A stretch of 64,000 nucleotides of DNA from Pholiota molesta (lineage: Eukaryota; Basidiomycota; Agaricomycetes; Agaricales; Strophariaceae): positions 25,439 to 89,438 of the forward strand of contig JACGCK010000180.1 in the NCBI GenBank assembly GCA_014925825.1, given 5' to 3'. How positions within the stretch are numbered: the first letter of the stretch is position 1; every line of letters begins with the position of its first letter. Made by a program: the position numbers and the translations under genes. Below the pieces are notes generated by a model. That model did no database searches, was not told where the DNA came from, and saw nothing but the letters and a program-made list of their open reading frames with translations. Shown in pieces: positions 1 to 24,494 of this stretch.

Positions 1-169
1 TAGCAGCTCCACCCCCGCTGTTCCTATTATTGGATCCTTCGTCATCGTCGTTGTCATCTCCGTCTTGTTTGTCTTTTATTTTACTTTCATTCGACGACGT
101 TTCTTGTTCCTCTACATGCCAGGGGCATACCGATAACTGATGATCCTCCTTCCCTCTTCCTCTTTCCAG
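1..169 (+). other. T-rich 5' flank, probably intron end of the PH gene
   Basis: This stretch is pyrimidine-rich and ends in a good 3' splice site: a CTGAT branch-like motif near 136-141, a polypyrimidine tract and CAG at 167-169. The first ATG of the long downstream frame (140) sits between branch point and acceptor, so it is unlikely to be the true start. The first exon is then outside the window or within the first ~66 bases. A short frame at 2-136 reads like a hydrophobic segment, but T-rich DNA gives that by chance. Confidence 0.5.
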
Positions 170-3100
170 GCTCATCCGCAACACTCTGCGTTTATCGCGC
201 CTCTTCAAGCACCGGCGTTGCACGTACTGACACCCACCCCAGCCACAACGCAACAACAAGACTACCACCATCACCCGCAATCCCAACCTCCACTCCAACC
301 GACGAAGCGGACGCACGGGTTCAGCGCGCTGAACCGCATCATCCGTGTGCCGCTCGGGGGCAGGAGCAGCGAACGGGATAAGAAAACCCAGCAATCCGAG
401 AAGGAGAGACCAGCCGAAGCGACCCAAAAACAACAACGACAGAGGCAACAGCAGGACCAGCAGCACCAGGACAGGGAACGCGACTCGGAGGCGCACCGGC
501 GGGCGCAGTCGCACGGCGGCGCGGGGTCGTTCGCGGCGCTCGTGGACGCGCCGGCGCGGGCGGGGCAGGGGCCGCGGACTGGGCAGAGTCCGTATGAACA
601 CGGGTACAGCGCGAGCGAGAAGGCGGGGCGGAGGGAGTCGCGACATGCGTCGCAGCCGCATCTGCTCGGGCCGATACGGAGGGGCGCGGAGGAGGAGGAC
701 CAGGATCGCGAGGATGAGGAGGAGAGCGACGAGGACGAAGAGGAGACCGCGGATGCGCCCCCGCCGTCGCAGCAGCGAAACGGGGCCGCGGGCGCGCCTG
801 CATCGCCCCCAGCGGGCACGCCCATGGACAGCCGGCACCGGCCGCCGCGCCCCTCGCGCGCGGTGCCGCCGCCGCCGCCCGACGGTGTCTCGGTCCCGCC
901 CGCGGCGGATGGTCCCGATCGGGGGCGCCATCAGGCCCAAGCGCAGGCTGGGACGGGCAGGGAGGGCAGCAGCACTGCGCCGCGGCACGTGGCGGACGCG
1001 CTGTTCTCCTATCCCACAGGTCTCTCCACAACGCCAACCACACTCGCCGCCGCAGGATCCACTTTGGGCTCCATCTCCGCCGCGCCCCCGCATCCGAGCG
1101 CCCTCTCGCCTGGAGCGAGTGTACCAGCTAATAACATTGCCGACGGTGCATTCCCCCCACCCGCTCCAGCTACCCACACCCACATGCGCGCCCCGCCGGG
1201 GTGGTGCCCCGACGACACCCCCCCTCCCACCACCACCACCACCGCTAAAAGCGCTCCAGCCACAGCGCACACCCACGTTCCTCCCCCCTCCACGTCCTCC
1301 TCATCGGAATGCGAGGTCCGGGCCCTGCTCCTCGGATCCCCACCGCCTGCGCCGCCGCGGATCGCGCAGAGCACGTCCGCGGGGTCCGCGCTCCCCGCTG
1401 GCGCTCTAGTTGCGTCTGGCGCCGGGTCCCGCTCTATCGCCGCTGCTGCTCAGACACTCGCGGCGCACACGAATGCGCACATCGACATGAATCCCACGGT
1501 GACAGCGCCCACCAAAACCGCCAACACCAGCACCAATACCAACACCAACACCACCACCAACACCAACACCAAAAACAACACCACCACCACCACTACCAGC
1601 CGCCCCCCGCGCGCCCTCCTCACGCGGCTCTCCTTCTACGGCTCGTCCGCGCTCCCGACGCTCCCCGCTCTCCCCGTGCTCGGCACCGGGCCCAGCGCGC
1701 TCGGGCGGAGCCTGTCCGCCGGGGGTGCGATCGGCGGTGGTGGGGGTGGGGGCGACAGCGATACGCTAGGACGAAGACGAGCGGGGACGGAGGGAGGGAG
1801 AGGCGGGGAGGAGGATGAGGCGGCAAAGAGACGGCGGTATGCGCGGCGCAGATTGAGCGCGATGCCGGCGCTGCCGCTGTATGGGGCTGGGCGTGCTGGG
1901 GAGGAGGAGGACGAGGAGGAAGAAGAAGAAGAAGAAGAGGACGATGAGGACGAAGGGGAGGGGGAAGAGGGTGTGGGAGAGGAGGGCGGGGACGAGGAGG
2001 GCGGAGACGGGGAGGACGCCATCACGGAGGGCGACGAAGACGACGACGGCGCGCCGCTGCGCTCGGGCGCCTCGGACGACACGGGATCGTCGTCGCTGTC
2101 TGCGGAGCGCTACACGTTCGCGTACACGTACCCGGACGACCGCGAGGACGTGCCCGCACACGACGACGGCACCGACACGGACGACAGGTATAGCACCGCG
2201 CCGTCCTCGCGGAACCCGTCCCCGCACGCGACGCCGGGCGGTGCGCCCGCGCCGACGTCCTACCCCGCGGGCCTCGCGGCGTACCTCGCGCGCTCCGCGT
2301 CGAGCGCGTCGTCGTCGGCATCATCGTCGGCGGCGTCGGCGTCGGCGTCTTTGGGGAGGCTGGATATGAGCTTTGCCGGTGCGGGTGCGGGTAACGGGTT
2401 CAGCTTCCTGGAGCAGGACCCGGAGGCGGCGCGGCGCGCACGAGGGAAGGGCCGGACGGAGGACGCGGGGCGCACGCCTGTCGCTGAGAAGGGCGGGTTC
2501 GGGTTCGGCGGCAGACGCGTGGGGAAAGAGAGGGGGCAGGAGGGTAGGGGAAAGGGAAAGGAGAAGGAAAGGGAGACCGAGGACTATTTCCATGCTCCCA
2601 CCGCTGCCGCCGGCGCGACTTCGAACGCGCGGTCGAGCACGCCCGTGCCCGCGCGCGCGCACGCGAAGTCGCCTGGCCCACCGTCGCCGTCGCGCACGCC
2701 GCGGCCCGGGGACCACGTCCGCGCGCCCGCCTTCCTCGCCGGGCGCGCGGGCGCTCCGCCGCCGCCGGTGCCTGCGCGCCCGGTCAATGCGCATGCGCTG
2801 CTGCCGGACATCCCGCCGCTGTCCCCGCTGACGGTGGCGCTGCCGCCGGCGATGGGGCGCGCGCAGTCGTCGCAGGCCGCGTTCGCTGCTTCTGGGTCGG
2901 GGTCCGGATTGGGGTCGGGGTATGGGTCGGGGTATGGGTATGGCACGGCGGGGTACGGGTCCGAGTACGGGACGCCGCAGCCGCGGGCGGCGCGCCCGGC
3001 GTTCGTGGCGCAGCAGACGGCGACGCCGGAGAGGTGGAAGGCGCAGTACCAGGAGCAGCTGCGCGAGCAGCAAAGTTCTCAACAGCACGATGTGCAGCAG

Positions 3101-6100
3101 CAAGGCCATCTACAGCAGCCGGCAGAGGAAAAAGTGAAGAAACCAAGTATATACCAGACGCACCGGTTCTCGCAGAGCTTGGTGGACGTCGGCGCGATGG
3201 CGCGGCGTGCGGCGGTGGTGCAGATGGTGCGGGAGGGCGAGGAGGAGGAGGAGGAGAGGCGGAAGCTGGGAAGGCGCGTGTCGCGGCGCGCAGGGGACGC
3301 GGGTCCCGGTCCAGGTCCGGATGGGGATACCGCGGCGGGTGGCGGCGGTGTGGTGCCGCCCTGGAGTCCGACGCTCGCTGAGATCGCCGTCGAGCTCGCG
3401 AAGGAGCGCGCGCGCGCGCACGCACGCGAGTGCGCGCTGGACGCCCGGCCCGGAGGCAAGGAGGAGGCGTGGAAGGCGACGGATGGGGTGGAAGAAGCGC
3501 GCGGGGACGTCCGACCCGGAGCCCGAGGCCGAGGCGAGGCTTATTCAGAAGTGCTTGTCAGTGGCACGACCGCCGGCTCGGAGGCTGAGAAGCCCGGTGA
3601 CGTCAAGCACCTCTCCCCCGCTGGTGCGCTCGGTCAGCGCACGGCGACGACGGCGGGCGCGGGGGAGGTGACTGAGCAAGTCGGATATGGGGGGCTGTCA
3701 GTGGGATCTGCATTGCTGGCTTCTCGGGGTGCCAATGCGGGCCTGGGTTCGGGTCTTGTGCGTGCGGGGGACGGGGTTGGTGCGGGTACTACTGCTTCTT
3801 TCCCTCTTACTACGACCACCACTGCAAGTGCGACTGCGACTGCGACCCTCACTGTACCAGCCTCGACTGCAGCGACACCAGCGACCATGGGCAACGTCCC
3901 GTCTGCGTCCCTCGTGCAGGGCGTGACACTCGACCTCACCGGCGCCATTGCGAACAAGCGCACGAGCATGGCGCCCCCATACGATGCCCTCTCCTACCCC
4001 CTCCGCAAGCGCCGCTCGATGCCCACCTTTACCACGCCAGACGCCGCGCCCCCGCCGTACCCCGCACTCGAAATGGAGGGCCTCGCCGCGTACAACACGA
4101 GCCAGTGGAGCGCCCGAGCGAACACGTCGCACGCGGATGACGAGCACGACGGCGACAACGACTCGGAGATGGAGCATGACCACGACGACACCGACGCCCT
4201 CGCGCGCGCCACCGCCCACGCGCCGCCCGCCGGCGCCGGCGCCAGCACGCACCCCTACGCGCACCTCGCCGCGCGCCCGTACGCGACCTCCGCCTTCGCC
4301 TTCCCGGGGGGCGGCGCGCCGCCCACGATCGCGCCGCGCGAGGACGAGGGCCGCGAGGCGCTCCCGCCGTACAGCAACGCGGTGCACATGCGCGCGGAGA
4401 TGCTGCGCAAGCGCGAGTTCGACGCGCCGGGCGTGCAGGCGCGCGACCGCAAGTGGCGCCGCGTCGTGTGCGAGCTCGACGGGACGGTGCTGCGCGTGTA
4501 CCGCCCGGCGCGCGCGCGCGAGCGCGGGCCCGTCGGCCACCTCGGCGCGTGGTGGGAGCGCGCGGTGGGCGCGGGGGACCGCGTGGGCTTTGCGCCCGGC
4601 GCGCAGAAGACGGCGGCGTTTGGGGTCGGCGGGGGCGGGGTGGTGCGGCTGGATGCGGCGCGCAGGGCGCCGGCGGGCGGGCAGAGCAGCAGGCCGACTG
4701 TGGAGGGCCCGAGTCGGGCGGTGCGGGAGGCGGAGCGCGCGCGGGAGATGGAGCTGGATATGGAGCGCGCGGCGGCGAGGGCGAGGAAGAGCGGTGAGGG
4801 GGGTGCAGAGGGCCCGCCGGTGCTTGAGCTACGCAGTCCGAGTCCCAGTCCGATGGCACACACGTATACCCCGACGCACAGACACACGCAGAGCACGCCG
4901 AATGCGCACCTCGGCTCGCCGAACGATCCCTTGCCAACGAGTACGACCAGCCCAGGGACGCTCAAACGCTCCGCGCTCGCGCTCGCCGTGCAGCTGCTCA
5001 AGCCAGCACCGAGCCCGGCCTCCTCGCGCTCGTCGTCGCGTTCGCGATCAGGCCACGCGCGCGCGGCGAGCGAGCTTCCCCTGCGCAGTCCCAGCGCAGA
5101 GAGCCGCCCGCGCACGTCGCTGACGCTGCCCACGCCCACCGCGAGCGGGCGCAGCTCGCCGAGCCCCCACTTCAGCCCCGCGCACAGCCGCACGCAGAGC
5201 GGGCACTCGACGCCCACCAGCGGCCACCGCTCCTCGCACAGCCAGAGCAGCAGCAGCGGGCACGGGCCGTACGGCGCGATGCACGCGCTCGCGTCGAGCA
5301 GCTTCGCCATGCTCGTCGGCGGGGGGCACGCGCGCGCGGGCTCCGTCGCGGGCGAGGACGGGCGCCTGAGTGTCGGCGGGCGGAGCAGTATGGCGAGCAC
5401 GTTTGGCGGGGCGGAGAGCAGTATGGGGCGCAGCTCGCCGGCGCCGACGATGACGCTGACAACGCCGTCGACGTCGGTGTACGAGCACTCGCGGCCTGGG
5501 ACGCCCATGGGCGGGTCGAGCGTGAATCTGCATGGAAATGTAAATGGAACCACGGCGACAGCGATATCGGCTACACACAGCAAGGCCAAAGGGAAGGGCA
5601 AAGAAAAAGAAAGGGTCAACGCTGGTGGCGACGACGAGCTCGACCCTGCGGACCTGATTCGCAGCTACACGATGCAACACGCGGAGAGCGGGTTGGGCGC
5701 GGACTACATAAAACGGCGGAACGTGATCCGCGTGCGTCTCGAGGGCGAGCAATTTTTATTGCAGGCACAAAATGTGGAGATGGTTGTAGAGTGGATCGAG
5801 GTACGTTCTTTTTCTCCTGTCTCGAAGTTCCATCAGCGCCATCTTTCACTCTTATTAACGTCTATTTTTTTTGTCTTCTGCTTAGGCACTGCAAGCAGCG
5901 ACGAACATTGCGCTGGATCTCGACGAACGGCCGATGCCGCGTGGACCACTATTCCCTCGGTACGTTATTGTTCACCCACTCTTCTCTTTTTTTACACCAT
6001 GCTTACTTATGCGGCCCCCTTTCCTGTAACCTTTAGACGACGACGGCGCAGACGCCCTGCAGCGATCACCACAGCTACTCCCGGTACAGACACATCAGGC

Positions 6101-6211
6101 TTGGGGGCTGCTCAGGCGACTGGATCAAATGTGGCTTCGACGTCGCCGACGGGCCAAACGCCTGTATCAGCGACATTCTTAGCGCCGCCGTTGGCACGGA
6201 CAAGGCGTTAG
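170..6211 (+). CDS. PH-domain protein, Skg3/Caf120-like, 5' partial
   Basis: The exons in the window are 170-5800, 5886-5959 and 6037-6211. Both introns (85 and 77 nt) have GTACGT donors and TTAG/TTTAG acceptors, and the phase is consistent, giving about 1,959 residues. Most of the protein is low complexity: Gln/His, Pro, Ser, acidic and Thr/Asn runs (the last at about 1500-1600). Two conserved islands form a split pleckstrin-homology domain. One lies at about residues 1405-1450 ([19 protein letters not shown]). The other is at about 1828-1895 ([20 protein letters not shown], then [20 protein letters not shown]). The C-terminus begins with a poly-Arg patch. This split-PH layout is known from fungal Skg3/Caf120-type proteins linked to the cell cortex and cell-wall or CCR4-NOT functions. 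The role here is inferred. GC content is far above the rest of the window, so long antisense frames are open by chance. Confidence 0.8.
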
Positions 6212-7220: not shown

Positions 7221-7540
7221 GCAATGTCGTGTTGGAACTCCCACCGCGGGGGCTGGAACTCCTGCCACGGTGGCGTACTATTGATAATCATATACATAAT
7301 ATTAATGCTAAAACTCCTGCCGCGGCGGGTCAACGTGAACATACTAGTAGTCGAAACTGTGCCGCGGTGGGGCAACATCTGTGGAAATCCACGAGTCGCT
7401 GCTGATATTAGACCTGAGCCCAGCGGTCAACCGTAAGCAACACGAATGACATCATCATCATGCTCGAACTGAGGTGGGGGCCGTGGGGCATGGAACTCTC
7501 GACGCGGTGCGGCAACATGTTGTTGGAAATCCCGCTGCGA
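7221..7540. repeat. Cluster of CGCGG-centred imperfect repeats
   Basis: Several imperfect copies of a GC-rich motif occur near 7240, 7265, 7316, 7353 and 7500 (CCACCGCGGG, GCCACGGTGG, GCCGCGGCGG, GCCGCGGTGG, GACGCGGTGC). Each is followed or preceded by GGAACTC- or CAACATGT/CTGT-like words. The cluster overlaps the last exon of the truncated NLR paralogue and runs on past its stop codon. It appears to supply that protein's unusual Arg/Pro-rich tail. It does not occur in the full-length NLR. Confidence 0.5.
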
Positions 7541-8832
7541 GGTTTCCTTAAACCTTCGATGTGCCTTGATGATCAATCTTCTATCAAGCTTCCGAGTAAG
7601 GTCGTCACAAGTTTTCTGATATTGCTTTGTTCGAGTTTTCAAATCGCCAGAAAATTGGGCTCTCGCAGCTCGACCTGTGAGATGATTTCCATTGAATCAA
7701 GATTAGATTATTGGGCAAGTAAATGACATAGTACACCAACTGACCTAGGAAAGATGGCATAGTAGTATACTCGTGAATGAGAGATGCGACCTGCAGCGAA
7801 GTACGTCCAATCTCTCTGATAACATCAGTCGTGCCATCAATGTTGGGCAAGTCCGCAACATCCTTCGCAACACCCAGCATCTCTCGCATGCTTTCAGCCA
7901 GGTCTTTGACAGCGTCGTCCAGGTTCTCTGTCTGTTTTACAGCCTAATTATGGGGTATTTATTCATATGGGCAGTTTGGTATATATTATTAGAAATTATT
8001 CACCGTATATACAACCGATAAGATGGTCCAAGAGGCTTTTAGAATGGGATGCGCCTATTGATTTAATCCTCAAGTCACTATGGTGAAATATAAAAGGAAT
8101 GGGAATGACGTACCTCAGTGACTACATCCATGATACCCTTTGTCAACCGTAACACTTTACGAAATATGCGGAGCACCGAAGTGACAGGAGATGGTAGGCT
8201 GGCACTGTCCAGGCGGGAAATATCATCGTCCACAGTTTTCATAAAGCTTTTGAAAGTATCTTCGAACTTGTCGGGACCAGTGGCTAATTTGATCTTTACC
8301 TTGATCTTGGATGCAATATCGACATCTTTCCTATTTTTGAGATCAATGGTTGCGTCTACATAAGTCAGCTTTTGATAACATGCCGCAGGCAGAATATGTG
8401 CTCACTATTGTCGAGCAAGTCAATCACTTTTGCTGTGTGCTGGCCAACTAGATGCTTGGCGAAATCGAGGCGCGTCCAGCTTGCTCGGTAGATTGCAATC
8501 TTGATCGTCGACGAGGGGTGGAATCGGCTAATGTAAGAAAAGTCGATATGGATTATGGCTGGCTCTGTGAGGACATGGACACTCACAAGTCGTCTTTGTC
8601 TTTCAATTTCCAACGTGGGGTGGAGCCAAACTTTTTTTCCGATTTCGAAACCTTTTCATCGTCAACAGAGATGATCACAAAATGGCCTCGTTGGTCTTTC
8701 TTAAGATCGCCCTCGACCTTGATACCTAGCATCAATAATATGAGGTTGAATGAAGTCGTACGGCCCTGAAGACTTACGTGCTAAGAGAGCACGCATCGGT
8801 ACTACTGCAGAATTGAGCGTATTGTTGACCAT
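7427..8832 (-). CDS. N-terminal-only NLR paralogue (C2-like + helical domain, no NACHT)
   Basis: Seven exons give an open frame of 351 residues: 8832-8778, 8725-8587, 8527-8406, 8355-8114, 8054-8004, 7943-7745 and 7674-7427. It matches the first exons of the NLR at 19257-24494 exon for exon; four of the first six exons have identical lengths and the other two differ by 3 nt. Shared blocks include FRFHPSS-IKI-IYR, DFAKHLxGQxTxKV, HPILxASW, IREIGRTSLQVASLIHEYT and QKTCDDL. All donors, acceptors and phases are intact, although one exon start and the 50-nt intron at 8405-8356 differ in sequence. After the QKTCDDL helix it diverges into a Lys/Arg/Pro tail (REFHAPRPPPQFEHDDD) and stops; no P-loop or ankyrin follows. 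It may be an expressed signalling-domain-only protein, such as a partner or inhibitor of the full receptor, or an early pseudogene. Function is inferred from homology to the neighbour only. Confidence 0.7.
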
Positions 8833-9849
8833 GTTAACAACGAAAGGATGAGCAGGAGGGTATCTTTGATATTGGTCGGATGGGAAACACGACGCTGTTT
8901 TGTGTCGCCTTGACATGGGAAAAGCGATTGGAAGGCTGTGGGGAAGCGACGTTCTGTCACAGATATAATTAATACTGGAAGGTTGAATATCAGTAGCAAG
9001 AAGGCCATGTTACCTTCCTCCCTTCATTGCGGCCTGTCTCCGGGGTGGCTGCAATCCCATCCCGATTCGAAGCCTGTGAATCCTTGCCTTCTACCAGGTT
9101 CCTTCCAAATGCTTTGTCTCTCAGCAATCTTTTGTATTGGCTTGCGAGTACTTGGACTCGCGAGTTCAAAGTTAGACTTCTCTTTTTCGCATATGAAGTG
9201 GTACTTAAGTATCCCCCCAGATGCTGTGTTGCATATAATGACGCTACTGTGGACAGTGGCACGAACTCGGTATAAGGCATTGCCTCACTACCGAAGGTCT
9301 CCTATCGGGCCTTGAATCTCTGGCGCTTAGCGCTTAGCTCTCGTGTCCCAGGCTGTGCTCCACCCATGCAGTCCGCCAGACACATGACCAACACCCTACC
9401 TATTTCTGGAACGTCGACGGCCCACGGGTTTGCGTTAGGCGCCAGGCGCCGCCAGAGATAAGGGAGAACCAAGGGAGAACCGCAAATAAAAATCTCCCAG
9501 GAGCTGATGCCATTCAAGCGACTCTGTCAGGCCCCGTGCGGGGTACCCGCACTGGCTGATCCATCGCCAAATATGCACCGGCACTGCGCGCTATTGTTGT
9601 TCCCGTACCGCTCAACATCAGCGCTCGTCTTCTCCTGTTCCCGTCCTGGCAACTGTCGCCGCAGCCGCCCGTTGACCTGAGTTAAAGGAAATCACAACAT
9701 CAGCTCTTGAGTCCATACGACACAACAATGCGGCTAAAGTGCGCGAGGCATCGAACAGAGTAGTGTACACGGAAAAATCATAATCAAACAAATAAAGCGC
9801 ATGCATGTGTCACAAGCAAAGAGAATCGACATGTTCGAAAGGCAACGTT
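8833..9849. other. Upstream region of the NLR paralogue, no gene seen
   Basis: Positions 8833-9010 hold the presumed promoter of the minus-strand NLR paralogue and show weak similarity to the region upstream of the full NLR (24.50-24.72 kb). The rest carries only short frames in both directions with no coding character. I see no RNA gene or terminal repeat. Confidence 0.4.
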
Positions 9850-10840
9850 GAATATGCTCACTTTGCCCTGGCCCACCATCTGCGCAATATACCGCCGAAG
9901 TCTCAGGGCGGAATGCGGTTTCACGATGCACATGGATGATATCGTCGACCGTGGCGAGGCGCGGACAGATTGTGGTATCGGAGAGAGTTCTGTGAGAAAG
10001 ATCGTACCATTATGTCAGTTTTCGGCATGGGTGGAGGGGAAGAGACGAAAAAACAAGGTGAACGCGGTGGCGAAGTAGGGGCGGAATAAAAAGAAATTGA
10101 TATACAGGATATAGATTTTTTTTTAGAATAAAAAATAGATGGATCGATATACGAACCATCACTGGAAATCTTGAAACTTTTTGAAAGGCTGCCAGCTACG
10201 ATGGGCCAGTAAAAATAGCGCACACCTTCTCGGCCTTCTCACACTGGCGGAGTTGAGGGTCAACATGGCAGCCAATACTTTCAGGCGCCTTCTGGCTGCG
10301 CCATGCTTGCTGGCGAAGATAGAATAGAGTTGACGGCGGCGATGGAGGAAATTTATGCGGCCTGTTGAATAGGATAAGCATCTCCACAGGTTAAGAAAGG
10401 GGAGTAGACAAGAAATAAAGGGACCAAACGAAAGGGCGTAGGTAGATCATATGTAGACTTACTTTTGCCTTTGCCAAATTGCCAATCTCGTAATAAACCC
10501 AACAATCAACTAGTCGGGATAAAGATCATCTCGTTATCCATGGTTTTTGCCAGCAAATAGAGTATCGACCGTGTATTGTCAGTGGCTGGGTCTTTAGCTT
10601 GCTACAAATCCAAGTTAGCTCAGGAATACTGGAGGAAAAGAATGGAGGCATACGTAGCAGGAAGGCGTGTCTCCAAGCCATATCTGAGGAACTTGTACTT
10701 GTCATCGTTTGCCCATGATATATTGTCCAGATGCGCGTCTTCGAGTTCAAGGTTTGGCTCCTGGACTCAAAGTCAATTAGTCCCGAAGAACACAGGCTGT
10801 AGGCTGCACCAGGTGCGAGAACATAATCCACGCACCTAAC
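9850..10840. repeat. Duplicated block, copy A
   Basis: Collinear with copy B at about 24.95-26.1 kb. Matching words include GCCCACCATCT.CGCAA (9867 and 25048), GTCGTCGACCG-like (9945 and 25100), GAACCATCACTGGAA (10155 and 25289), GCTGCCAGCTACGA (10187 and 25326), GGAGTTGAGGG (10247 and 25390) and CCTGGACTCAAAGTCA (about 10761 and 25963). Divergence is substantial and indels are frequent. On the minus strand, copy A keeps a short open exon-like piece (PQLRQCEKAEKVCAIF, about 10200-10260) that is interrupted by a stop in copy B. About 10455-10550 also matches about 17998-18095. The origin (old gene or transposon) is not recognised. Confidence 0.6.
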
Positions 10841-13099
10841 CTGGCTGCTGTAGATTTGCTAAGAGGCGGTTTGAACAAGGCAATTGGTGATGCCTTTTGC
10901 GAGCCTTCCATAATGATGGCCATAACATAATCCCTAGGACGAGAATAGACGCGTTGGCAGGCGAAAAGAGGAGCGCACTTGGCATAGCAATGCAGTACAC
11001 GCCATTGGATGGTGGAGAGTCCAAAGTCGCGGAAATACTGTGGGAGCCTATCAACTCTGGCGGTGCTGAAGAACCTGGGGGTGCAACTTGAATGTGGATG
11101 TGGCTGCCGTCGGCAATTAACCACGGGAATCCGCTGTAGGGCGGTGTATGATCAGGTCGAGATAATATTAGTACTTTGAAAATCATACGTACCTATTTAT
11201 GAATTCAAGAATGACGGTGCTGACTTTGAAGGGCCAAACTTTGGCGCCTCGAGTGCTTGAGCATATGCGAGGCAGAGAGGATATGCTGCTTGGGAGAGCC
11301 TAAATCAGAGAGTTGAAAATTTAGACATGAGTGCGTAAAGAGATAAGAGTGCATAATCACAGTAGGCGATGAAGAATGTGTTAGAATTCGCGAAATTTTT
11401 TCACCAGGTACCTGCGACTGGTACCTCGGACAGCCCATAGTTCGCTTCTGGTGCACCAACTACATAAAAAATACGAGCCAGGAATTCCTTTCCGACAGCG
11501 ATGTAATAAGTCACCCTATGTATTCAAGTCTGGCCGCTTCGAGGCAAGAGCGATTGCGATGACAGTTGATAACAGGAAGTTCATTGCACAATTAAGTCCG
11601 TCATCCTAGTGACAGCCTTGGTTGATTTATCTAGAGGGGGCAAGGGTGTCAGTGAGATTTGCAGTTAGAAAACAGAAAAATGTGCGAACATGCCTTCGTG
11701 GCTTGGCCACTTTAGTGATTATGACTTCGGCATTGTAAGCAATGGTGCGAGGATGTGTATATACACGATACTTGGTATCAGCTTTCCATGCTGTCGATTC
11801 GGGGCCGTATGTATTTCTAGGGAATACTTTCATTGACAAGTCAATTTCGGCGCTTCGAGCATTGGAAAATAACTGTTGCGCACCTTGTCGTCAATTCTCA
11901 TCAAATAGCCAGATTAAGCTATAATTAATATTTCTGATTGCCCTTCTGTTGTATTTCCTGCTTCAGAAGGCAGCTATTCTGATTTGGCCTGCGCTATTAA
12001 TGTGTTGGAGTTGGAGTGCGTGAAGACGGGGTGATGCAGCTGGTACACCTCAACGAGACCTCGATGCATGGGGCTATGCAATTCGAAGAAATCGTAGGAA
12101 ATAATTGAGATCTTGAGAGATACGAGTACGAGGCTGAGGCTGGTTGAGGCCTTGAGCTTGAGCTTGGGGCCTGAGGTGGGTGGGAGTCTGGTGGGAGTCA
12201 CTGGCCAAATTCAAGTTGCGAACATATGTGTAACCCCGGGGTTTCCCACGGCATCGACATGTTTATCCAAAGCCATCTTTAGCACACACATCCTTCTCTG
12301 CCAATGCGTTCATTTGTCTTGCCTCACTCGTCATTGCATCAACAGTAATTCACATCCACTGGCCATGCATTCAGATGGTGCTAAGTCAGTGACATGCATG
12401 AAGTACAATTTTGCTACAGGCTAACATCAGCTGTCGTCTCTAGAACGCGCATGGCAACACCCACTCAGGCTCTCTTCTTCGCGCCATAGGTCTAGCCCTT
12501 GGATTTTTTTGTTCGTGACTTTCCAGGCGTCCACACCCGCAGCCATCCGGGATCCAAATCTTTATGCATATGCTGAAGAACCTGGATTCCTCACGGCCAC
12601 CAGATCCTCGTTTCAAACCTATCGCCGCCGATGCCTCCCTCGCTCTGACAAGGAGCCAGCTCGACTTTCTGTGAATAGGAATCTGGCTCGGGTCTTCCGC
12701 TTTACGTTTCAGTATCGAAATCGAGGAGCGTGCACTCAACTTCTCCAACCCGTTGGCAGGGGCGCCGAGTCCATTGAGGACGGATGTGGCATCTACGCAC
12801 ATCCCACAGTATAGGGAGCTTAACGACGTGGCAGCGATCAAAGAGGGCTCGAGGTGGCGCTGTATGGGATGGTCTTGGGTGTGGGCGTCGAGATAATCTC
12901 GCGGCGCCTGCTCTGATACTCGCTTCCGCGGGAATCTCAGCAGGCGCGTAGAGTTATCCTCCGACTTGATCAACGTGCGGGTTTTTTACTTGTTCTTCCT
13001 TGTCGCCCACCTCACATTCCCTTGCGTAAATGTGCAGCATCTCATCTTCGTCTCATCCTCGAACCTATGCTGCATCGCCTATACTCTACTCAATCATCT
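10841..13099. other. Accessory DNA without a supported gene
   Basis: Only scattered coding-like fragments occur. At about 12540-12890 (+) two frames together read like exon debris (ADASLALTRSQLDFL, then SIEIEERALNFSNPLAGAPS), but stops and a frame change separate them. About 11805-11850 resembles 17128-17165 (TATGTAT.TCTAGG.AA.CTTTCATTGA). I recognise no family. Confidence 0.35.
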
Positions 13100-16000
13100 A
13101 GAAACATGTCGGCAACCCTGTAGACCCATAATCTGCTTCATCTATAAGTTTTCAACACGGCTGGCCCTCAATGAATGCCCACCATGAAGGCGCAAAATCA
13201 TGGGAGTCGTAGATTTTGCACAAATTTCGCCCTCGCCCTCCGAAAAATCTCTCCGGATATTCACCAGCGAGGCTGTAACGCTCGTAGCTGGCGGGCATGG
13301 TCCGAAGCACATGCGAGCACACGGGCGTTCATATCCGAAGAAAATAGGTATGTTTGGTCTAAACATGACCCATTAGCGCCCCTACTCACTTGTTCTGCGC
13401 ATAAGTGGCATTCAGAGATCCCAAGATGTCGAACCATCGGCGGCAAACCGGTGCATCTCGAAATTTGAGGACATTACCCACCTCAGCAGTATTTCTGCGC
13501 TTGCAATCGGCCAGCATGGACCCTGTGAACTCATCCAGGGCATCCGCATTCGACGGAAATCCAGCAAACGCAACTGCACCTCTGCTGAACGAACTCAAGC
13601 ATTGTCAGTGACTTTCACAACACCGGCCACAAGTCCCAGCAACGTGGGGTTGTCGGACGGCTAGACGCGGAGAAAACCTCTAAACAAGGTAATTTCCCCC
13701 AAAAATCAGACAAAACGACCGACATACTGACTTGTACAGCGTCTCCGTCTAGCGGCGAAGACGAGGATGGCAATTCCAATTTTTTGCTGCAAAAAATCGG
13801 ACGAAATCGGTCGATGTCCACCAAAATATCCATACTTGGAGACAACGCTTACCTGCGTAGCATCAGCAGCCTCGTATGTACACGGCGAACAAAGCGTTCT
13901 GGAGGGCAGAGTCGGCGATGGTGCTGGCATCTACGTCGACCAAGCCGTAGGAGCACTCGGACCGTACATCACACCTCATCGCGCCGCATTCTCGTCGTTC
14001 ACATCATGGGTCCCTTTGCTCCCCTCGCAACTCGCCCCATCCAACGCGACATCGAAGCCTAGTTCTCCAGTACCGTAGGGCAGCAAAATAGGCGAACAAT
14101 ACGAAGCAGGCCGCGAGCAGCGGGCGTGCTCTCGACTTTATCCACCTGTCGCATTATCAACGGACTCGAAGGTGCAGCACGCGAAAACAGGTCCAACAAT
14201 AGGCTGCCGAAGAAAGAGGTGGTATGCACAAGCTACCTATGCAGAACCTGATAGAGGCGGCTCGCCAAGCTGCACCCGCTGCTTGGATATGCGGAGGTGG
14301 GCATGGCAGTGGGCAATGAGCATCTCAGTCGCTCGGAAGCGAAAGACCCCATCGATACCAACAAGTACACGACCTCCACCTGGCCGCGGACTTTGCCAAC
14401 CTTATGGGTCCCATTCAACTACGCTTCTCGCTGGCCGAGAAGCGAGGAGATGTACGAACTGTTCTCGGGGGCAGCTGAGGATGATATCGATTACGTAAGC
14501 ATACACGCTATACGTCTGACATCAATTTGACATTTTCTTTTAGCTTATTTTGCTTTCTACAATACCTGCTGTTTCTAACTCAGGTACTCCTAGGCCGCGA
14601 CTATAGGCACCAATCTACACCGCCGTCGATTGCTCACTTGTGGTTATATGGCGATCTCCTTTGTCTCCGCCTCGAGGATATGTGACGAGCGCATGACGAT
14701 GTTGAATATGGCAAGAGGATGATAACGAGCAGATGTTGACGAGGAGCCGAGCTTCTATACGGTAAGTTTATATTTTACAAATCGATCGAGTTCGCGCCCG
14801 GGCTCTTGATTTGTTCTCTGCATATCGACGAGACACTCATCATTGCTGTATTATTTTATTAGCTTCAGAATCCAATCTCATGAGGAGCATACGTACACGC
14901 ACGGTGACACACCCCGTCTCGCAAGCTTACAAACTTACGGACGAATGCCGCCAATATCAAATACTGTTGGTACTGGAAGACAAATTTAAAGTGGGCTGCG
15001 CCATACTATGCCATCTCAAAAATGACTTCAATGACGATCTCAGTTCCGGAGCCAACACCCGCCCTCGACGTCGAACCAGCAAATTTTGTACGACGTCTCG
15101 TCCGACTGTGCATCCTGCAGACAGCAGAACGATCGCTTCGTTGAGTTTCGGCGATTTATGCCTGCGGTGAATTATAGGCTGGCGATGAGCGAGGATCAAG
15201 AGGCGCAGTTGGACCTCGTATCAGGGCTTAGCACGAGGAACTCGATATATGCTTATCGCCCGGCTCGTGGCGTGGATTGCCAAGCTGCGCCCATACTCAC
15301 TCTCGGATGGCGGCGGTACTTAGGGATGTCAGCAACGAGCATCCCAGGCGCTGCGCAGCGAAAGATACCATCGACGTCAACAAGTGCAAGACCCTCACCT
15401 ATTCGCGAGCTTTTTAAGCCCTAAGGACCCGCTCAACTGGGCTCTCGCCGACGAAAAGGCCTACAGTCATCCCATCGCCCATTTAAGCACGATATCGATT
15501 ACGTAAGTATACATCTGCTGTCTAATGCTGGTACATCTAACATGTTCTTTTAGCCTGTTTCGCGGCCTGCAATGCCTGCTGCTCCTAGGCTCAGGATGAC
15601 TCGGACCGTGCCTTGCACCACATTGCTCTTTGTTACCATCATTCAGAGCAGCGACTCACCTGTTCGGCTCGTAAAATGCGCTCATAGCTACCAAGGGCTC
15701 TTATCATCCACGGCTTTTTGACGCATATCGAATTCGAGGGCCTCACTCAAAATCTCTGCGCTAGTAACCAACATGCATTGTTTCTATAAATTCGCCTACA
15801 TCGACAGAGGGTCCGCCGGCATTCGTATTCAACGGAGATTCCTCAAAACAAGACCCTGCCGTCGGTAAACGAACCCAGGCAGTGTTAGCGACTTTCACAG
15901 CGAGCGGTACAGGTCTCAGCAGCACCGGAGGAAGCTCGCAGAGCTCAATATATGCTTATCGCCCTGTTCGCGGGATGGATTGCCAAGTAGCGCCCACTTG

Positions 16001-17000
16001 ACCTCAGGTGCTTAGGGACGTCAGCGACGAGCATCCCAGGCGCTCCACAGCGAAAGATACCTTCGACATCAACCAGTGCGAGACCTCCACCTAGCCGCGA
16101 GCTCTCGCGAGCTTTTCCAATCCTTGGGACCCGTTCAACTGCGCCCTCGCCAACGAAAAGGCCTACACCCTTCCCATCGCTCAGTTAAGGATGATATCGA
16201 TTACGTAAGCATACGACCTACTGCCTAATGCTGGTACATCTAACATGTTCTTTTAGCTTGTTTCGCCTCCTGCAATGCCTGCTGCTCCTAACTCAGGTCC
16301 TCACCGCATGTGCTACCTTCCAGCGTCGTCGATAGCTCGATTGTACGGCGATTTCCCTCGTCAGCCTTGAGGAAATGGCGATCAGCGCGAGCCTGGCACG
16401 ATAATGAGGACGAGCACTGAGATGTTGACGAGGACGAGGGCGAGGACGTGGAGCCGAACTTACATAGTGAGTTCATCTTTTGCAACTTGATAGAGCTCGC
16501 GCCCGGGCTCTTGAGTTGTTCTCTGCCAATCCACACGACCACTCATTACTGTATCATTTTCTTAGCCTCAAACCCAACCTCCCACGTTGTCGTTAAATAG
16601 GACACACACCCCATTCCGCAGCTTTATAGCGAACGAAAGCCGCCCGTACCAAATACTGTTGGTGCTGGAAGCTGAATTTAACGTGGGCAGCGCCATACCG
16701 TGCATACCTCAAAACCAACCCCAATGATGATCTCAGTCCTGGCGCCAGCACCCCGCCCTCGACATCGGACCATCCAATTCCGCACAACCTCCCGTCCGCA
16801 CTGCGCATCCTGCAGAACGAGCACTTCGTTGAGTTTCGGCGGTTTTATGCCTGCAGCGGGCTATATGCTGGCGTCGAACGAGATAGGCATGCTATGTCAG
16901 CCCGGTACGCGCGTAGTTACTGGAGAGTGGATGAGAATTGGCTGTAGACGAGTCATCTTCGACGATTTGTAGGATTCAGCGTTCCCTTGGTGATGAAAAC
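13100..17000 (+). repeat. Array of decayed gene-like repeat units
   Basis: At least three diverged copies of one unit lie in tandem on the plus strand. The clearest shared block is GATATCGATTACGTAAG followed by a 50-60 nt intron-like stretch ending CTTTTAGCYT. It occurs at about 14484-14550, 15490-15560 and 16194-16258. The coding-like piece before it (DDIDY at the exon end) and the GCATCCCAGGCGCT region (15338, 16041) also repeat, as does GCGCCCGGGCTCTTGA (14791, 16499). One unit keeps a clean 54-nt intron (about 13689-13742). Frames are broken in every copy, so these are relics of a duplicated gene or element. The family is not recognised. Confidence 0.55.
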
Positions 17001-19256
17001 GAAGAAAAATACACCGAGTAATCCAAAATCCAGGTCTGATTCATGGTGTCGATGATGTTCGCGACTCGGATAGAGTACGTTTTCAGCATGAATGGGATCT
17101 TTTTTTGGGAGCATGTTCTCCGGTACCTATGTATCTAGGAAAGCTTTCATTGATAGGATAAATTTTATATTTCGATAACAGTCAAGGGTACAGGCCAGCA
17201 GTACTGATCACGATATCGACTGCTGCGCCTAGATGGGCCACCTAGATCGTGTGGTCTCCATACTGACAAGAGCAGCGATTGATACTAATCGACGTATAGA
17301 TAGAGGCACACTTCGTCACAATTTTCGTGGACCACACCTCGAATGTCATTCCCACTGTTGCCTTTCTTCTGGCCCACCGTCTCCACATGGCCTATTTCCC
17401 CATGAATAAAGTTCCACGGTCTAGAGGGTGTGTGTCGTAGCCCGTAGGTCTGTGAGGACGGATTGTAGATTCAAACGAGAGTTCTGGAGGGAAAGTTGTA
17501 TCAGTCTGTTTGTTTTAATGAAGAGTAGAGCAAATCGAAAGGAGGGATATAAACACAAAAACGAAACAAAGAATCAACGAACAAACCTTTCTTGAAATCC
17601 GTTGCACATAGAGAGAAAAGTCGAATGAAAACCAAAGTATATTCCGACTATATCATGCGATGTACGACAAAAAATACGAAACAACGCTTGGTTAACTCAC
17701 TAATTCAGAGTCATTTCACAGAGTAGAGGGCGTACTTCTGAGCTTTCAATGTGTCTTCGTCAATAGGTGGCTGAGTAGGAATTTACGAAGAACTGGCAGC
17801 ATGCGCTCATATAGTCATTCTCGACGTATAAAAGATACCAGGTTGAATGTCGAGCAACGTTTCTATGGCGTAGGAGTACTTAGTGTTGGGGAAGTCGACG
17901 CAGCCAAGTGCTCATAGTAAGCAGATTGGTTTGTCAAAAAAGATGACGACAACTATGTAGTATGGTGCATGGGTCCACGTTGAGAGGAAAGTATGGAAAG
18001 ACATAACATCATGAAGACTTACTTGTGCCTTTGCCAGATTTCTGATTAGCAGTAAGCCCCCAACTATCGAATGACAGGCATCTGTGAGGATCATCGTGTC
18101 TTGGAATTAATCAGTCTCTAACTGACGATTAGTTCAAATGACGATAATACGAAAATAAACGCAGAACCTACATACCAGAAAGTCACGTCTTCAAGCCGCC
18201 TTGAGGAAGTCGCGCGTCTCTTCTGCATTCAGGCGAGCTTTTAACGGCCGGTACAGGTTGGCTCTTGATGCCACCGAACTAGTTCCTAGTACCAATGGGC
18301 CAATTTGAGTAAACTAAGTAGAAACTCACGAAAGGACCGGTTAAAAGAGACCAATTGCCGAATAGTACAGTTGGTATCACGGTAAGGCTGCCAAAGCTTG
18401 ATGAGAGCAAAGATGCATATTGTAGGTTGTAGAAGGCCCAGGGGACGGAAGGCGAAGGTGAGTATGTACTTACCAGGGGCACTTGGAGAAACCTGCTCGC
18501 AGAAATTCACAGTCTCAAACAGGTGGGACACAGACACGTAATTCAAGTGTGCACTTGAAGACGCCTGTGACGATGGCGGCTGTAGTGCATAAGGTGGAGA
18601 GGACGCGACCTGGCGATATACATATCGAGGCCGTGGTAAACAAGATTTGACGCGTGACGCTCGTCTAAGCCAAAGAGAACTTCAGGAATCAGCACTTCCA
18701 TGAATCCATATCCTCCCTGCCCAACCATATTCAATTCAAATTCTTCACTGTCCTCGTATCCCGTAATTCCGAGATGAACAACCTCCACAGAAAACTGCGG
18801 AAGAGCCGCTAGGGCCTAGACTATTAGGAGGCGATTGTAAGCCGTAGCTGCCCAAAGCACTACTGCACGGCGACCTCTCAGAAAATCGCTGAACGCTACG
18901 AATTTCTCAGTCCAATGCGTGAGTTTCGCAGTCCTTATTCTCGTCGCTTTGTATATCCATGCTAAGAATCTAACTTTTCCGCACAGCTCCCTTCAAATGT
19001 TCAATAAATTCATCATCTAGCAACCTAGCTCGTTACAGCGAAATTTACATGTCCTAGTACGCCCACCTACAGTATCTGAGTAATTACTCAAGTCCAACCT
19101 ATCAATTTCTGAGCAGCGACCAGCGTCATATCTGGTATCACTGCGGAATTTATCAAGAGGTACGCGCAAACACTTTTCCTAATACATATTCCCGCAATCT
19201 CAGTATGCACCACTCCGCAGCGATTTCTCCCGTGCCCTGGCAAACGGTCGCCGTCA
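17001..19256. other. Accessory DNA with a partial third copy of the duplicated block
   Basis: About 17998-18095 matches copy A at about 10455-10550. On the minus strand it reads an open exon-like piece (DACHSIVGGLLLIRNLAKAQ) with a GTAAGT donor; the copy A version has an in-frame stop. At 18790-18545 (-) another open piece with good composition (FSVEVVHLGITGYEDSEEFE at its start) follows a CGCAG acceptor. Neither belongs to a family I recognise and no full gene can be assembled. Confidence 0.35.
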
Positions 19257-21350
19257 TCACATCATTGCAGAAGCGCCGTGCTCCATCAACAGCTGTACGA
19301 TCGACTGATATCCGAAAAAAGACGCCACCTGGAGTGCATCGCCGAACTCGCCTCCCGGGACATTCGGATCCGCACCATGCTCCAAGAGCAGCTTCACAAT
19401 CCCTTCCTGCCCGCCAGCTGATGCAGCCTGGAGTGCATTGCTGTAGTCGCCTCCCAGGACATTCGGATCCGCGCCATGCTCCAGGAGCAGCTTCACAATC
19501 CCTTCCTGCCCGGCAGCTGATGCAGCCTGGAGTGCATTGCCGTAGTCGCCTCCCTGGACATTCACATCCGCGCCATGCTCCAGGAGCAGCTTCACAATTC
19601 CTTCCTGCCCGGCAGCTGATGCCGCCTGGAGTGCATTGCCATCGTCGCCTCCCTGGACATTCACATCCGCACCATGCTCCAGGAGCAGCTTCACAATTCC
19701 TTCCTGCCCGGCAGCTGATGCCGCCTGGAGTGCATTGCCATAGTAGCCTCCCTGGACATTCACATCCGTGCCGTGCTCCAGAAGCAGCTTCACAATTTCC
19801 TCCCGCCCGCGAGCTGATGCCGCCTGGAGTGCAGTGCCGTAGTCGCCTCCCTGGACATTCACATCCGCGCCATGCTGCAGTAGCAGCTTCAAAATCCCTT
19901 CATCTGCGCCAGTGATTGCTCCCTGGAGCGCATTGCCGTGCTCGCCTGCCTGGACATTCACATCTGCGCCATGCTCCAGAAGCAGCTTCACAACCCCTTC
20001 GTCTCCGCTGGCTATCGCCGCCAGGAGTGCATTTCCATACTCGCCTCCCCGGATGTTCACATCCGCGCCATGCTCCACAAGCAGCTTCGCAATCCCTTTG
20101 TCTCCGCCGGCTATCGCTGCCAGGAGTAAATTGCCGTGCTTGCCTTTCTGAACATTCACATCCGGGCCGTGCTCCAGGACAAGCTTCACAATCCCTTTGT
20201 CTCCGCCAGCTATTGCCCCCTGGAGTGCATTGCCATAGTAGCCTCCCTGGACATTCACATCTGCGCCGTGCTCCAGGAGCAGCTTCACAATCTCTTTGTC
20301 TCCACCAGCTATTGCCCCCTGGAGTGCATTGCCATAGTAGCCTCCCTGGACATTCACATCCATGCCGTGCTCCAGAAGCAGCTTCACAATTTCCTCCCGC
20401 CCACGAGCTGATGCCGCCTGGAGTGCAGTGCCGTAGTCGCCTCCCTGGACATTTGCATCTGCTCCGCGCTCGAGGAGCAGCTTGACAATGAGTCCGTGTC
20501 CGCCAGCAATCGCCGCCTGGAGTGCATTGCCGTACTTGCCTCCCTGGACATTCACATCGGCGTTGTGCTCTATCAGCAGCTTTACAATCCCCTCCCACCC
20601 CCAAGTTGATGCCATCAGGAGTGCATTGCCGAACTCGCCTCCCTGGACATTCACATCTGTGCCGTGCTGCAGTAGCAGCTTCACAATCCCTTCGTCTCCA
20701 CCAGCTATTGCCCCCTGGAGTGCATTGCCGTACCTGCCTCCCTGGACATTCACATCCGCACCATGCTCCAGGAGCATCTTCACAATTCCCTCCCACCCGC
20801 GAGCTGATGCCACCTGGAGTGCATTGCCATAGTCGCCTCCTTGGATATTCACATCCATGCCATGCTCCAGAAGCAGCTTCACTGTCCCTTCGGCTCCCCC
20901 AGCTATGGCCGCCAGGAGTGTATTGCCATACGGCCCTCCCTGGACATTCATATCTGCGCCGTGCTCCAATAGCAACTTCACAATTCCCTCCCGCCCGCGA
21001 GCTGATGCTGCCTGGAGTGCATTGCCGTACTCGCCTCTCTGGACATTCACATCCGCGCCATGCTGCAGTAGCAGCTGCACCATCCCTTCCTGGCTGCAAA
21101 TTATCGCCGCCTGGAGTGCATTGCCATGGAGTGTATTGCCATAGAAGCCTCCCTGGACGTTCACATCCGCGCCATGCTCCAGGAGTAGCTTCACAGTCCC
21201 TTCTGCTCCGCTAGCTATCGCCGCCTGGAGTGCGTTACCGTACTCGCCATTCTGGGTATTCACATCTGCACCATGCTCCAGGAGCATCTTTACAACCCCT
21301 CTATGGCCTTCACGCGATGCTGCCTGGAGTGCATTTCCGTACCTGCCTCC
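19257..21350 (-). repeat. 99-bp tandem repeats encoding ankyrins
   Basis: There are 21 units of 99 bp; one carries a 15-bp insertion and the last is one codon short. The encoded consensus is GGxYGNALQAAS, then a helix IVKLLLEHGADVNVQ. Units 17-20 are nearly identical to each other. Units 10 and 16, each followed by the same GGYYGNALQ start, suggest a multi-unit duplication. Variation concentrates at a few positions of each unit (residue 3 and the GxxG turn), as expected of a binding surface under diversification by unequal exchange. Confidence 0.85.
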
Positions 21351-24300
21351 TTGTACATTCAGACTTCCACCCTTCATTAACTGTAGTGACAGTTGTTCAA
21401 GGCCGGCTAATGCGGCATAATATAGAGGTGGAATATCATTGGGCTGGTTGTGAATCCGACCTCTCATAAATTCATATGGCTTGTCCAAATCCCAAATACG
21501 TAGCCAATTAAGCCATGCATTGCTCTTAGGTGTGAATAGCTTCTTGGCCAATGTCAAGGTCGAAGAAGGCTCGGGTTTGTCAATCCCACCAGAGTGTGCA
21601 TGGAAGATCCAGTGTTCAGCTGCATAAAGTGACAGTGGAAATGAGCCAGCCACATTTTCGTCCACCAAGTCAAACCCATCAAAGTGTAGCAGGTAGGCCA
21701 AGCATGTCTGAGCCATTAAGGAATGCGAGAGTTGGTCACTGATTAGATGGAATTTCGAGCCAATTCCTTTATGCTCCTGGAGGTGTGTTGAAAGAAGGTA
21801 TTCCTTGATGGAGACGTGGGCTAACTTAATTTGCCCTTAAGTCATGGTTGAGTCATGGTGTTCTTTAGCAAATATACTGTCAAAATATTGAAACTTGATT
21901 TGGAACATACCTTCAGATTCGACGATAAGACCGGAACATTTCTTCAATACATCCTGATTATTCCAGTACCGATGCGATGGTGAAAAATGTGGGTCATTTT
22001 CGGGATCGAAATGAACAGAAATGGCTTCTGCGATTTCGGATAGTCGCAATGGGCGAACAGCAAAACATAACCAGCGAAGGAATGTCTGGGTATCGGTATG
22101 ATCCATCTCATTAACCTTCAGCAAAATTCGATCGTAGGTTTCGTGTAAACCTTTGGGCAAGGTGACAACCTGCTTTCTCGCTGTATGTGGGTTCGAGCAT
22201 GTTTGTAATTCCATGAGCTGTAACGCGACCCATCGGAACCTGAAAGCCGTAAGTTACAATGCTGCGAGGCTCGAGCAGCAGAAAGATTCGTACATTCCAT
22301 CGGCACTCCCTGCCAGCGTTAATTTTATGAAATCCCGTGTCTCTCGGTCCCACTGTGTTGCCAGTGCTAAAAGCTGCTGCTCGAGATATATCATGATGTC
22401 ACTTTCAGACTCTTCCGCCAAGTCAACGCTACGTTCGTCGAGCGTTTGGAGAATCTCATTGATATCCGGCTCCGGCCGACTCATTACCATCATATGCAGG
22501 GTGCTGATCTTAGGTGTTTGAATTCCTTTGATCCACACCAATGTCTCCCCTCGTTCAATACATTCGTCGAGGGAATCGATGATGACATAGGTGGAATGCA
22601 TTCCATTGATGATATTGTATAGGATGTTCTCGAGGGAGTTGGTGGATGGCTGTTGGTTTCCATGGCCATGCTGATTGTACAATTCCACTAAGGTAGCAGG
22701 GATACCGTCGCATTGGACCCAGAGTTGTGAAATAAGAGAGCGGATGAGCTTGTCATGTAACTGGAGATCTTTCTGCGCGTCCCTTCCATCAAAGAAGAAA
22801 TATGCGTAAGTAGTCGATGGGTTTTCCTCATGAAGTTTCTTGATCTTGTCTATGATGGATGAACTAAGAAGATGTGTTATTTACCATATGGTCAGAGGTC
22901 TCGGACTCGAAGCGTACCATAGGATAGTCTTCCCAGACCCCGCTGTAAAGTTCTTCAATAAAATTTAGAGTCGCGAATGGCATTATGCTGCTTACCTTTT
23001 CCCTTGATCCAGAGAAAGTCGGCCCTCTCCTGGAATTCACGGAAACGCTCGCCGTCGAGAAACCAGGAACAAGTGTCCTTCTGATGCTTCTTGCGTGCGT
23101 CATTGTAGTTTCTGGAACTATCTGGAGCATCAAGCCATTTCTGAATATCCCTGGCTGAAAAAGAAGGATGTTCAGTCATAATCAATACTGGATATTATCA
23201 AAATCCATCCTTACCTAGCTGGTCGTCCTTGATTATTTTCAACTGCAGATTCGTGTCCATGTTCACTCTTCTATCAAACTTCTGCTTAAGGTCATCGCAA
23301 GTTTGCTGACATTGTGCAATACGCGATTTCATATCGTCAGATAACTGGAATTTCGCAGCTCGGACTACAAGACAACCGCCATTGAATATGGTTAGATTAT
23401 TCCATAATGTTGCCCACTTACAGGGGAAAGGCAACCTCGTATACTCATGAATCAGCGACGCGACCTTCAGCGATGTGCGCCCAATCTCCTCAATGACATT
23501 GTCTGTGCCTTTGATTAGCAAGAGGTCCGGTTTTTCCTTCGCAATCCCTAGTGTTTCTCGCAGAGTGTCCGCTAAAGCTCGAACAGAATCATCTAGGATC
23601 TCTGTCTGTTGTACGGCCTATTTGTAGGATTTACATCAGTGATTCCAGTTTTATTACAAAATTATTCACCGTGTACACGGCCGACATAACGCTCCAAGAG
23701 GCTCCCAAAATGGGGTGTGTCTATTTATCCAATTTTCCGGTCACTACAGCACAAAATAGGAGAGGAATAAAAGCGACGTACCCCAGCAACTGCATCCATA
23801 ATGCTCTTTGTAAGCTGTAGCACTGTACCGAGTCCACCGAGTATCAACGTGTTACCAGCAGATGCTAGGACGCCACTTTTCATGTGGGAAATATTATCAT
23901 CTACAGATTTCATGAAGATCTCGAAGGTGTCCTTTGATTCTGGAACGAGACATAAATTGATTTTGATCTTGGACTTGCTAGTGACCTCGGCGCCATGTTC
24001 GTCTTTGAGATCAAAAGTTGCATCTACGTGAATCAGATTTCCGCAACAATGCAGACCGAATATGTGCTCACCATTATTGAGTAACTCGCTGACTTTTCCT
24101 GTGTACTGTCCAGCTAGATGCTTGGCAAAATCGATGCGCGTGCGGCTTTCCCGATAGATCACAATCTTGATCTTCGACGAGGGGTGGAAACGACTAATGT
24201 AGGAAAGCCGATATTAATCCAGGCTGGCTCTACGAGGACATGGCCGCTTACAATTCAAGGTCTTTCCATTCCCATTGAGGGGCAGGTTCAGATTTCTTTT

Positions 24301-24494
24301 CAGATTTTGCAATTTTTTCATCGTCGATGGAGACGATCGCAAAAGAGGCCTGTCGTTTCTTCTTGAGATCGCCCACGACCTCGATACCTAGAATCGGTAA
24401 TATAGGGAATGAACTCCTACTGCCCAGAAGACGGCTTACCTGCTAAGAGGGCGCGGATTGGTACTACTGCAGGATTGAGCAAATTCTTGTCCAT
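19257..24494 (-). CDS. NLR-type STAND receptor: C2-like, NACHT, 21 ankyrin repeats
   Basis: Twelve exons: 24494-24440, 24387-24252, 24193-24072, 24023-23782, 23720-23670, 23617-23422, 23364-23215, 23154-22996, 22942-22918, 22863-22294, 22239-21911 and 21835-19257. Phases agree throughout and give 1,537 residues. Residues 1 to about 150 resemble a C2 domain, followed by a helical region (HPILGASWSVMSAVYTAV) typical of basidiomycete NLRs. The NACHT NTPase has a P-loop GKAGSGKT (about 369-376) and a Walker B YVIIDSLDEC (about 471-480). The winged-helix part ends with IKLAHVSIKEYL (about 681-692). From about 841 to the stop there are 21 ankyrin repeats of 33 residues, preceded by one degenerate repeat. 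Such proteins are cytosolic signal-transducing ATPases of fungal innate immunity and incompatibility; the trigger is unknown. The 48-nt intron at 24071-24024 is a multiple of three, so its retention would add 16 residues without breaking the frame. The model is intact, with no sign of decay. Confidence 0.88.

Follow-up and report, generated by a model that had tools for sequence, protein, structure and literature searches.

An intact short gene for a C2-like and helical module near a full NLR-type receptor in Pholiota molesta

NLR N-termini that combine a C2 domain with a Goodbye-like domain are described as specific to Agaricomycetes, and Goodbye-like domains as relatives of HeLo and MLKL domains, with reservations about their cell-death activity (PMC9815663). 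Pfam annotates the N-termini of NLRs in 23% of cases in Basidiomycota versus 72% in Ascomycota (PMC9815663). Stand-alone NLR-type N-terminal domains are already known in other basidiomycetes, where the same paper reports hundreds of singular BaMLKL/HeLo-like proteins that are expected to be controlled by other proteins. The HET-S/NWD2 system consists of a separate pore-forming HeLo protein and a receptor, linked by an amyloid motif at the N-terminus of NWD2 (PMC12881547). Truncated NLRs of plants, such as TN10, contain TIR-NBS domains, retain the nucleotide-binding part, and have been reported to pair with full receptors from their cluster (PMC8069298).

Here we examine a 64,000-nucleotide stretch of the genome of Pholiota molesta (hereafter the window: C91:25439–89438, in a 65.6-Mb assembly) that contains a short gene 10.4 kb from a full receptor of the same family. 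In a split NLR/effector pair, the receptor is devoid of an effector domain that the neighbor supplies. The locus resembles HET-S/NWD2 (PMC12881547) in that a small putative effector gene lies near an NLR gene, but HET-S/NWD2 signals to a separate effector via a shared amyloid motif, whereas here the receptor itself has the domains of the short protein. As exons 1–7 of the receptor encode the same module, the locus does not fit a split pair of this type in that feature. Like the Agaricomycete C2 and Goodbye-like NLRs (PMC9815663, PMC4986451), the short gene encodes a C2-like domain followed by a helical part; unlike them, it ends before the NACHT domain, into which the family members of this genome continue, those that were checked also reaching ankyrin repeats. 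With the singular BaMLKL/HeLo-like proteins (PMC9815663) it shares the stand-alone NLR-type N-terminal domain without a P-loop, but those proteins were chosen as MLKL-like and the short protein carries a C2-like domain ahead of its helical part. TN10 (PMC8069298) offers the precedent of a truncated paralogue within a receptor cluster, in that case with the nucleotide-binding part that the short gene lacks. The titles and abstract openings of the literature that we surveyed mention no C2-helical truncated paralogue beside its receptor.

Anatomy of the short gene and its neighbor

The short gene occupies positions 7427–8832 of the window on the minus strand and consists of seven exons separated by six GT-AG introns, which together encode 351 residues followed by a TGA stop codon. 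Exon 1 (8778–8832, placed by gene model and blastn homology) starts with the ATG at 8832. The C2-like domain is encoded by exon 2 (8587–8725), exon 3 (8406–8527, also backed by genome-wide relatives), and the first part of exon 4 (8114–8355), which contains the first helices as well. Exon 5 (8004–8054) is a 51-nt mini-exon with the motif HPILKASW, and exon 6 (7745–7943) encodes the helical domain. Exon 7 (7427–7674) completes this domain and then runs, from about 7569 to the stop codon, into an Arg/Pro tail that is allele-specific, as judged by the gene model, blastn, and comparison with a second contig (C212, below). The introns measure 52, 59, 50, 59, 60, and 70 nt, and their phases (1, 2, 1, 0, 0, and 1) are identical to the phases of the first six introns of the receptor. 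The original prediction of an exon-for-exon copy with six introns that keep working signals is correct. The sixth donor reads GTCAGT in the short gene and GTAAGT in the receptor. The third intron measures 48 nt and is open in the receptor; in the short gene it measures 50 nt, so that splicing is needed to keep the frame open. Apart from the missing 3′ part, neither allele of the short gene contains a stop, a frameshift, or a lost splice site, and all 12 splice sites are retained in both.

The neighboring receptor (19257–24494, minus strand) is encoded by 12 exons and comprises 1,537 residues with C2-like, helical, NACHT, and ankyrin-repeat parts (Pfam: NPHP3_N, E 5.7e-33; NACHT, E 1.7e-8). Its frame is intact throughout in the window, and its first seven exons carry the C2-like and helical module. 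As anticipated, the short gene does not reach NACHT: its frame closes within exon 7, the P-loop of the receptor is encoded by a 25-nt exon 9, and no NACHT match occurs in the 351-residue protein. The predicted distance of 10 kb between the two genes also holds (about 10.4 kb to the receptor 3′ end). Without a NACHT or NB-ARC domain with a P-loop, the short protein falls outside the NLR (STAND) class. The ankyrin array of the receptor (19225–21420) is built of 99-bp units and contains 20 staggered 300-nt copies that are 60–94% like the reference copy. Similarity between adjoining 300-nt copies reaches 94%, which points to recent homogenization or turnover of the array. The same strand carries another full receptor of the family, which begins some 2 kb beyond the left edge of the window. 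In the interval that separates the short gene from the receptor, a block of ~0.3–0.9 kb is present in three diverged copies in tandem (14313–16882, 66–80% identity), and the left part of the window contains a plus-strand open frame of 2,024 codons that is largely low-complexity (137–6211).

By homology and exon structure, the short protein belongs with the C2 and helical N-terminal module of Agaricomycete NLRs. The first domain is predicted to adopt a C2 fold, judged not on the window protein but on a Galerina homologue (P0001, 43% identical). In the model of this homologue, a beta sandwich precedes the helices (mean pLDDT 60.9, higher in the beta part). Foldseek ranked the C2A domains of dysferlin and otoferlin first and second (E ~3e-5; TM-scores by target 0.61 and 0.50, respectively), with many further C2 domains lower in the ranking, among which stand a few large proteins of other kinds (syNOS, PI3K). 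The helical part, modeled from a Phlegmacium homologue, forms a fair bundle (pLDDT 77.8). Comparison of this bundle with MLKL/HeLo folds by Foldseek or VIA gave no clear match, although the bundle may still have such a fold. In sequence-based searches, Pfam returned no match above cut-off for the short protein, C2 and Goodbye included, no Goodbye or C2 family was among the first 25 of 39 Pfam families for 11 homologues, and PDB returned two weak matches (best E 0.21).

Duplication, alleles and relatives

Positions 7569–8876 align with 23259–24541 in the receptor region at 70.5% identity over 1,329 columns (blastn, E 7e-159), which is far beyond chance. This match stops inside exon 7 near 7569. 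On the other side, the copied block exceeds the gene: the upstream DNA (8833–11085; blastn matches and genome-wide block search) was partly duplicated along with it, as further collinear matches lie at 9916–9995, 10131–10268, and 10598–10865, with weaker ones at 8959–9017 and 11059–11085 (E 1e-4 and 3e-5). Collinearity thus reaches 11085 upstream of the short gene and 26124 on the receptor side. These common upstream blocks point to a segmental duplication in which the short gene arose from the 5′ part of the receptor. One of them (10550–10865) occurs in at least three places in the genome, one ahead of the short gene and one ahead of each of the two receptor alleles. As it was found only at these positions, a transposon origin of the duplicated upstream block is disfavored. 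Within the duplicated upstream DNA, third-codon periodicity (17/24/17) gives no clear coding signal. Phylogenetic trees group the short gene with the neighboring receptor at moderate support (77.7/47 for protein, 93.9/79 for nucleotides). The short protein is 58% identical to the receptor, 59% to L013, and 48–59% to other family proteins. Since tree support is moderate and L013 is equally similar, a specific relationship between the short gene and this receptor is better argued from the upstream DNA that they have in common.

A second contig (C212) aligns collinearly with the window (87–94% identity over the main blocks) and carries both genes; it probably represents the other haplotype, from the other nucleus. 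Its allele of the short gene is intact and encodes 395 residues. Since C212 has the same truncation with a different tail, we can eliminate the possibility that the short gene is an assembly artifact. At the junction, the C212 allele lacks 30 bp and the other gaps, as far as the point at which the window passes into unlike sequence, are multiples of three, although repeats make this alignment uncertain. In the window, the frame takes its final codons and its stop from that unlike sequence, a remnant of a terminal inverted repeat (7379–7436) that is not seen in the C212 allele. This segment matches both inverted ends of a ~2.5-kb element on contigs C467 and C28. The two copies of this element (G000:C467:155885-158392 and G000:C28:106611-109082) are 92.6% alike and have inverted ends of ~45 bp; in the C467 copy, the longest among the listed open stretches is 133 codons. 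The repeat unit of the tail itself was found in five places, four at the short-gene locus on the two contigs and one on C541 with three mismatches, while the reversed pattern used as a control gave one match. As the unit is at home at this locus, with one weak match elsewhere (C541), we rejected the idea of a tail common to other genes. The new Arg/Pro-rich tail of the original prediction does exist, but it is specific to one allele and takes its stop codon from the remnant of a transposon end. A tail that differs between alleles is not a conserved partner motif.

The receptor allele on C212 (L010, G000:C212:260500-269500) contains an 11-bp insertion in the NACHT exon after the P-loop that shifts the frame, possibly owing to an assembly error. 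The public model of this allele (P0006, 665 aa) has no P-loop. Between the contigs, exons 1–8 of the receptor differ at 1 of 1,111 sites (window 21900–26202 versus L010), compared to 17 of 914 in the shared exons of the short gene. This disparity is a case of unequal coalescence within 15 kb.

Genome searches, which were seeded with the family's own sequence and hence may miss more distant stand-alone copies, recovered 26 family loci with allelic pairs counted in. NACHT sequence was present at 23 of these (tblastn alignments); the remaining three, the short gene, its C212 allele, and C57:431352-432623 (L036), are N-terminal only. L036 also breaks off in exon 7, contains a frameshift in exon 2, and lies directly upstream of L020, a full receptor copy that needs seven frame shifts to align. 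It follows that truncation in exon 7 occurred more than once, and the other product shows signs of decay. In a further family receptor (L016, G000:C298:7600-16600), about 5 kb of other DNA interrupts the gene after the fourth exon and ahead of the fifth.

Outside this genome, a search with the product returned five proteins, from Galerina (335 aa), Laccaria (322 aa), Phlegmacium (193 aa), and two other sources (262 and 193 aa), none of which has a precomputed Pfam domain. This search admits proteins of 0.55–1.75 times the query length (193–614 aa) and places full receptors outside its range, so the shortness of these homologues, which may be truncated genes or incomplete annotations, arises partly by construction. 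A profile search brought the total to 12 proteins. The protein searches, covering about 193–614 aa, contained no protein equal to the product, and public annotation in this size range is therefore probably without the short gene. One of the 12, P0015, comes from a contig of 1,775 bp, where it forms an open frame with 142 residues, and groups with both alleles at 99.7/100 support. P0015 is 68.7% identical to the short gene versus 51.8% to the receptor. At this level of identity P0015 is probably from another species, which suggests that the lineage exists outside this genome.

Constraint or decay of the short gene

The original prediction proposed selection on the product and named a dN/dS value near 1 as the mark of a pseudogene. 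The main alternative is that the locus is a young truncated relic that lost receptor function with its 3′ part, stays open by chance and through recent ancestry of the alleles, and owes its low omega to the period when the gene was still complete. We regard this reading as possible, though rather unlikely, and a constrained gene as likelier. In a branch codon model with 12 of the 26 rows, omega is 0.30 in the background, 0.52 on the stem of the short gene, and 0.35 on the allele tips; these values come from our own script rather than an established package, and one background row (L020) contains seven apparent frame shifts. A value of 1 is rejected both for the stem (lnL −6509.77 free versus −6514.32 at 1, p = 0.0025) and for the tips (lnL −6509.72 versus −6512.02, p = 0.032). 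A model with 10 of the 26 rows gave 0.48 for all branches of the short gene (p = 0.0002 versus 1), with similar values for the C2-like half (0.49, p = 0.019) and the helical half (0.45, p = 0.002). Selection on the product is supported by these omega values, which lie below 1 for stem and allele tips alike, by two open alleles, and by the lack of indels described below. The related open frame P0015, the C2 fold predicted for a homologue, and, within the size limits of that search, the short proteins of Galerina, Phlegmacium, and Laccaria also speak for a real gene.

The stem value is also higher than a single common omega (p = 0.009). The receptor stem stands at 0.34 (10 of 26 rows), and in the protein tree the branch of the short gene measures 0.51 versus 0.23 for the receptor. 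The raised stem omega fits relaxed or altered constraint and as such favors a relic, but this branch covers a period on either side of the truncation. As both alleles have the truncation, the simplest view is that the tips postdate it. The 0.35 observed there, albeit from few changes (17 substitutions), argues against a relic.

Direct comparison of the alleles leads in the same direction. Positions 7569–8832, exons and introns together, contain no indel, and the adjoining upstream DNA (8833–10233) contains 20–22 indels and 62–64 substitutions, depending on the gap penalty. At the upstream ratio of indels to substitutions, about 5 to 6 indels would be expected in the shared exons, where none is seen (P 0.002–0.005); this deficit and the 12 of 12 splice sites kept in both alleles also argue against a relic. 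The shared exons differ by 17 substitutions in 914 nt (1.86%), with nine changes per 211 synonymous sites versus eight per 669 nonsynonymous sites (Fisher p = 0.009). The introns differ by five substitutions in 350 nt (1.43%), and the body of the gene is less diverged than the upstream flank (22 of 1,264 versus 64 of 1,348 sites). Since the introns are as alike as the exons and equally free of indels, recent common ancestry could explain part of this pattern. Three more observations are consistent with a relic: the family does decay in this genome, as illustrated by the frameshift in C57:431352-432623 and the seven in L020; tail and stop differ between alleles, one stop being derived from a transposon end; and no annotated protein of 193–614 aa matches the product.

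Possible roles of the short protein

We favor the reading, with a probability of roughly 0.6 judged from sequence data, that the short locus is a constrained gene for a stand-alone protein of a C2-like domain and a helical bundle, produced by segmental duplication of the 5′ part of the receptor. The duplicate would have lost everything past exon 7, ahead of the P-loop exon, and its product would consist of the C2-like domain, the helical bundle, and a repeat-derived tail that varies between alleles. The C2-like domain may take this protein to membranes. There, the helical domain could signal alone at a low level or join receptor assemblies via the same domain–domain contacts. Within such assemblies a protein without the NACHT switch would be a modulator, either a brake or a sensitizer.

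The predicted function as a pair with the adjacent receptor finds no backing beyond proximity. As a dedicated signaling-only partner or decoy, the short protein would bind the N-terminal module of this receptor and be either needed for its signal or titrate it. Both genes lie near each other on the same strand, they have duplicated upstream DNA and perhaps regulation in common, both domains of the short protein are constrained, and a truncated TIR-NBS protein of plants is on record as pairing with clustered full receptors (PMC8069298). We nevertheless consider a dedicated partner doubtful and less probable than a relic, since the receptor still contains this module itself and the tail is not conserved. 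The receptor is frameshifted on C212, where the short gene is intact, so that a working pair is not always present. In addition, the position of the short gene does not define its partner, given the further family receptor to the left of the window. Because of this second receptor, the cluster rather than one neighbor is the natural context of the short gene. A role as mere DNA, donating N-terminal exons to family receptors by gene conversion with the protein incidental, is very improbable: unequal crossing-over and conversion are considered sources of diversity in NLR clusters (PMC12258605), and the near identity of receptor exons 1–8 on the two contigs is a sign of recent homogenization between haplotypes, but the short gene sits on its own long branch at no more than 59% identity to the receptor or any other family protein.

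The favored reading of a constrained stand-alone protein can be extended to the family, and here we are tentative. Selected C2-helical proteins, cut from receptors in exon 7, could, anchored at the membrane, restrain or sensitize several receptors of the family in trans, and would then form a signaling-domain-only class in basidiomycete immunity. Retention of intron 7 in the full receptor would give a similar product, as the frame would end a few codons into this intron, and the duplicate may have made permanent a product that first arose by splicing. The tail-variant alleles and the frameshifted receptor of the other contig offer a natural test case for whether the C2-helical module needs a receptor in order to function or can do so alone. 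If this extension is true, the NLR clusters of mushrooms would keep a signaling-domain-only class under selection.
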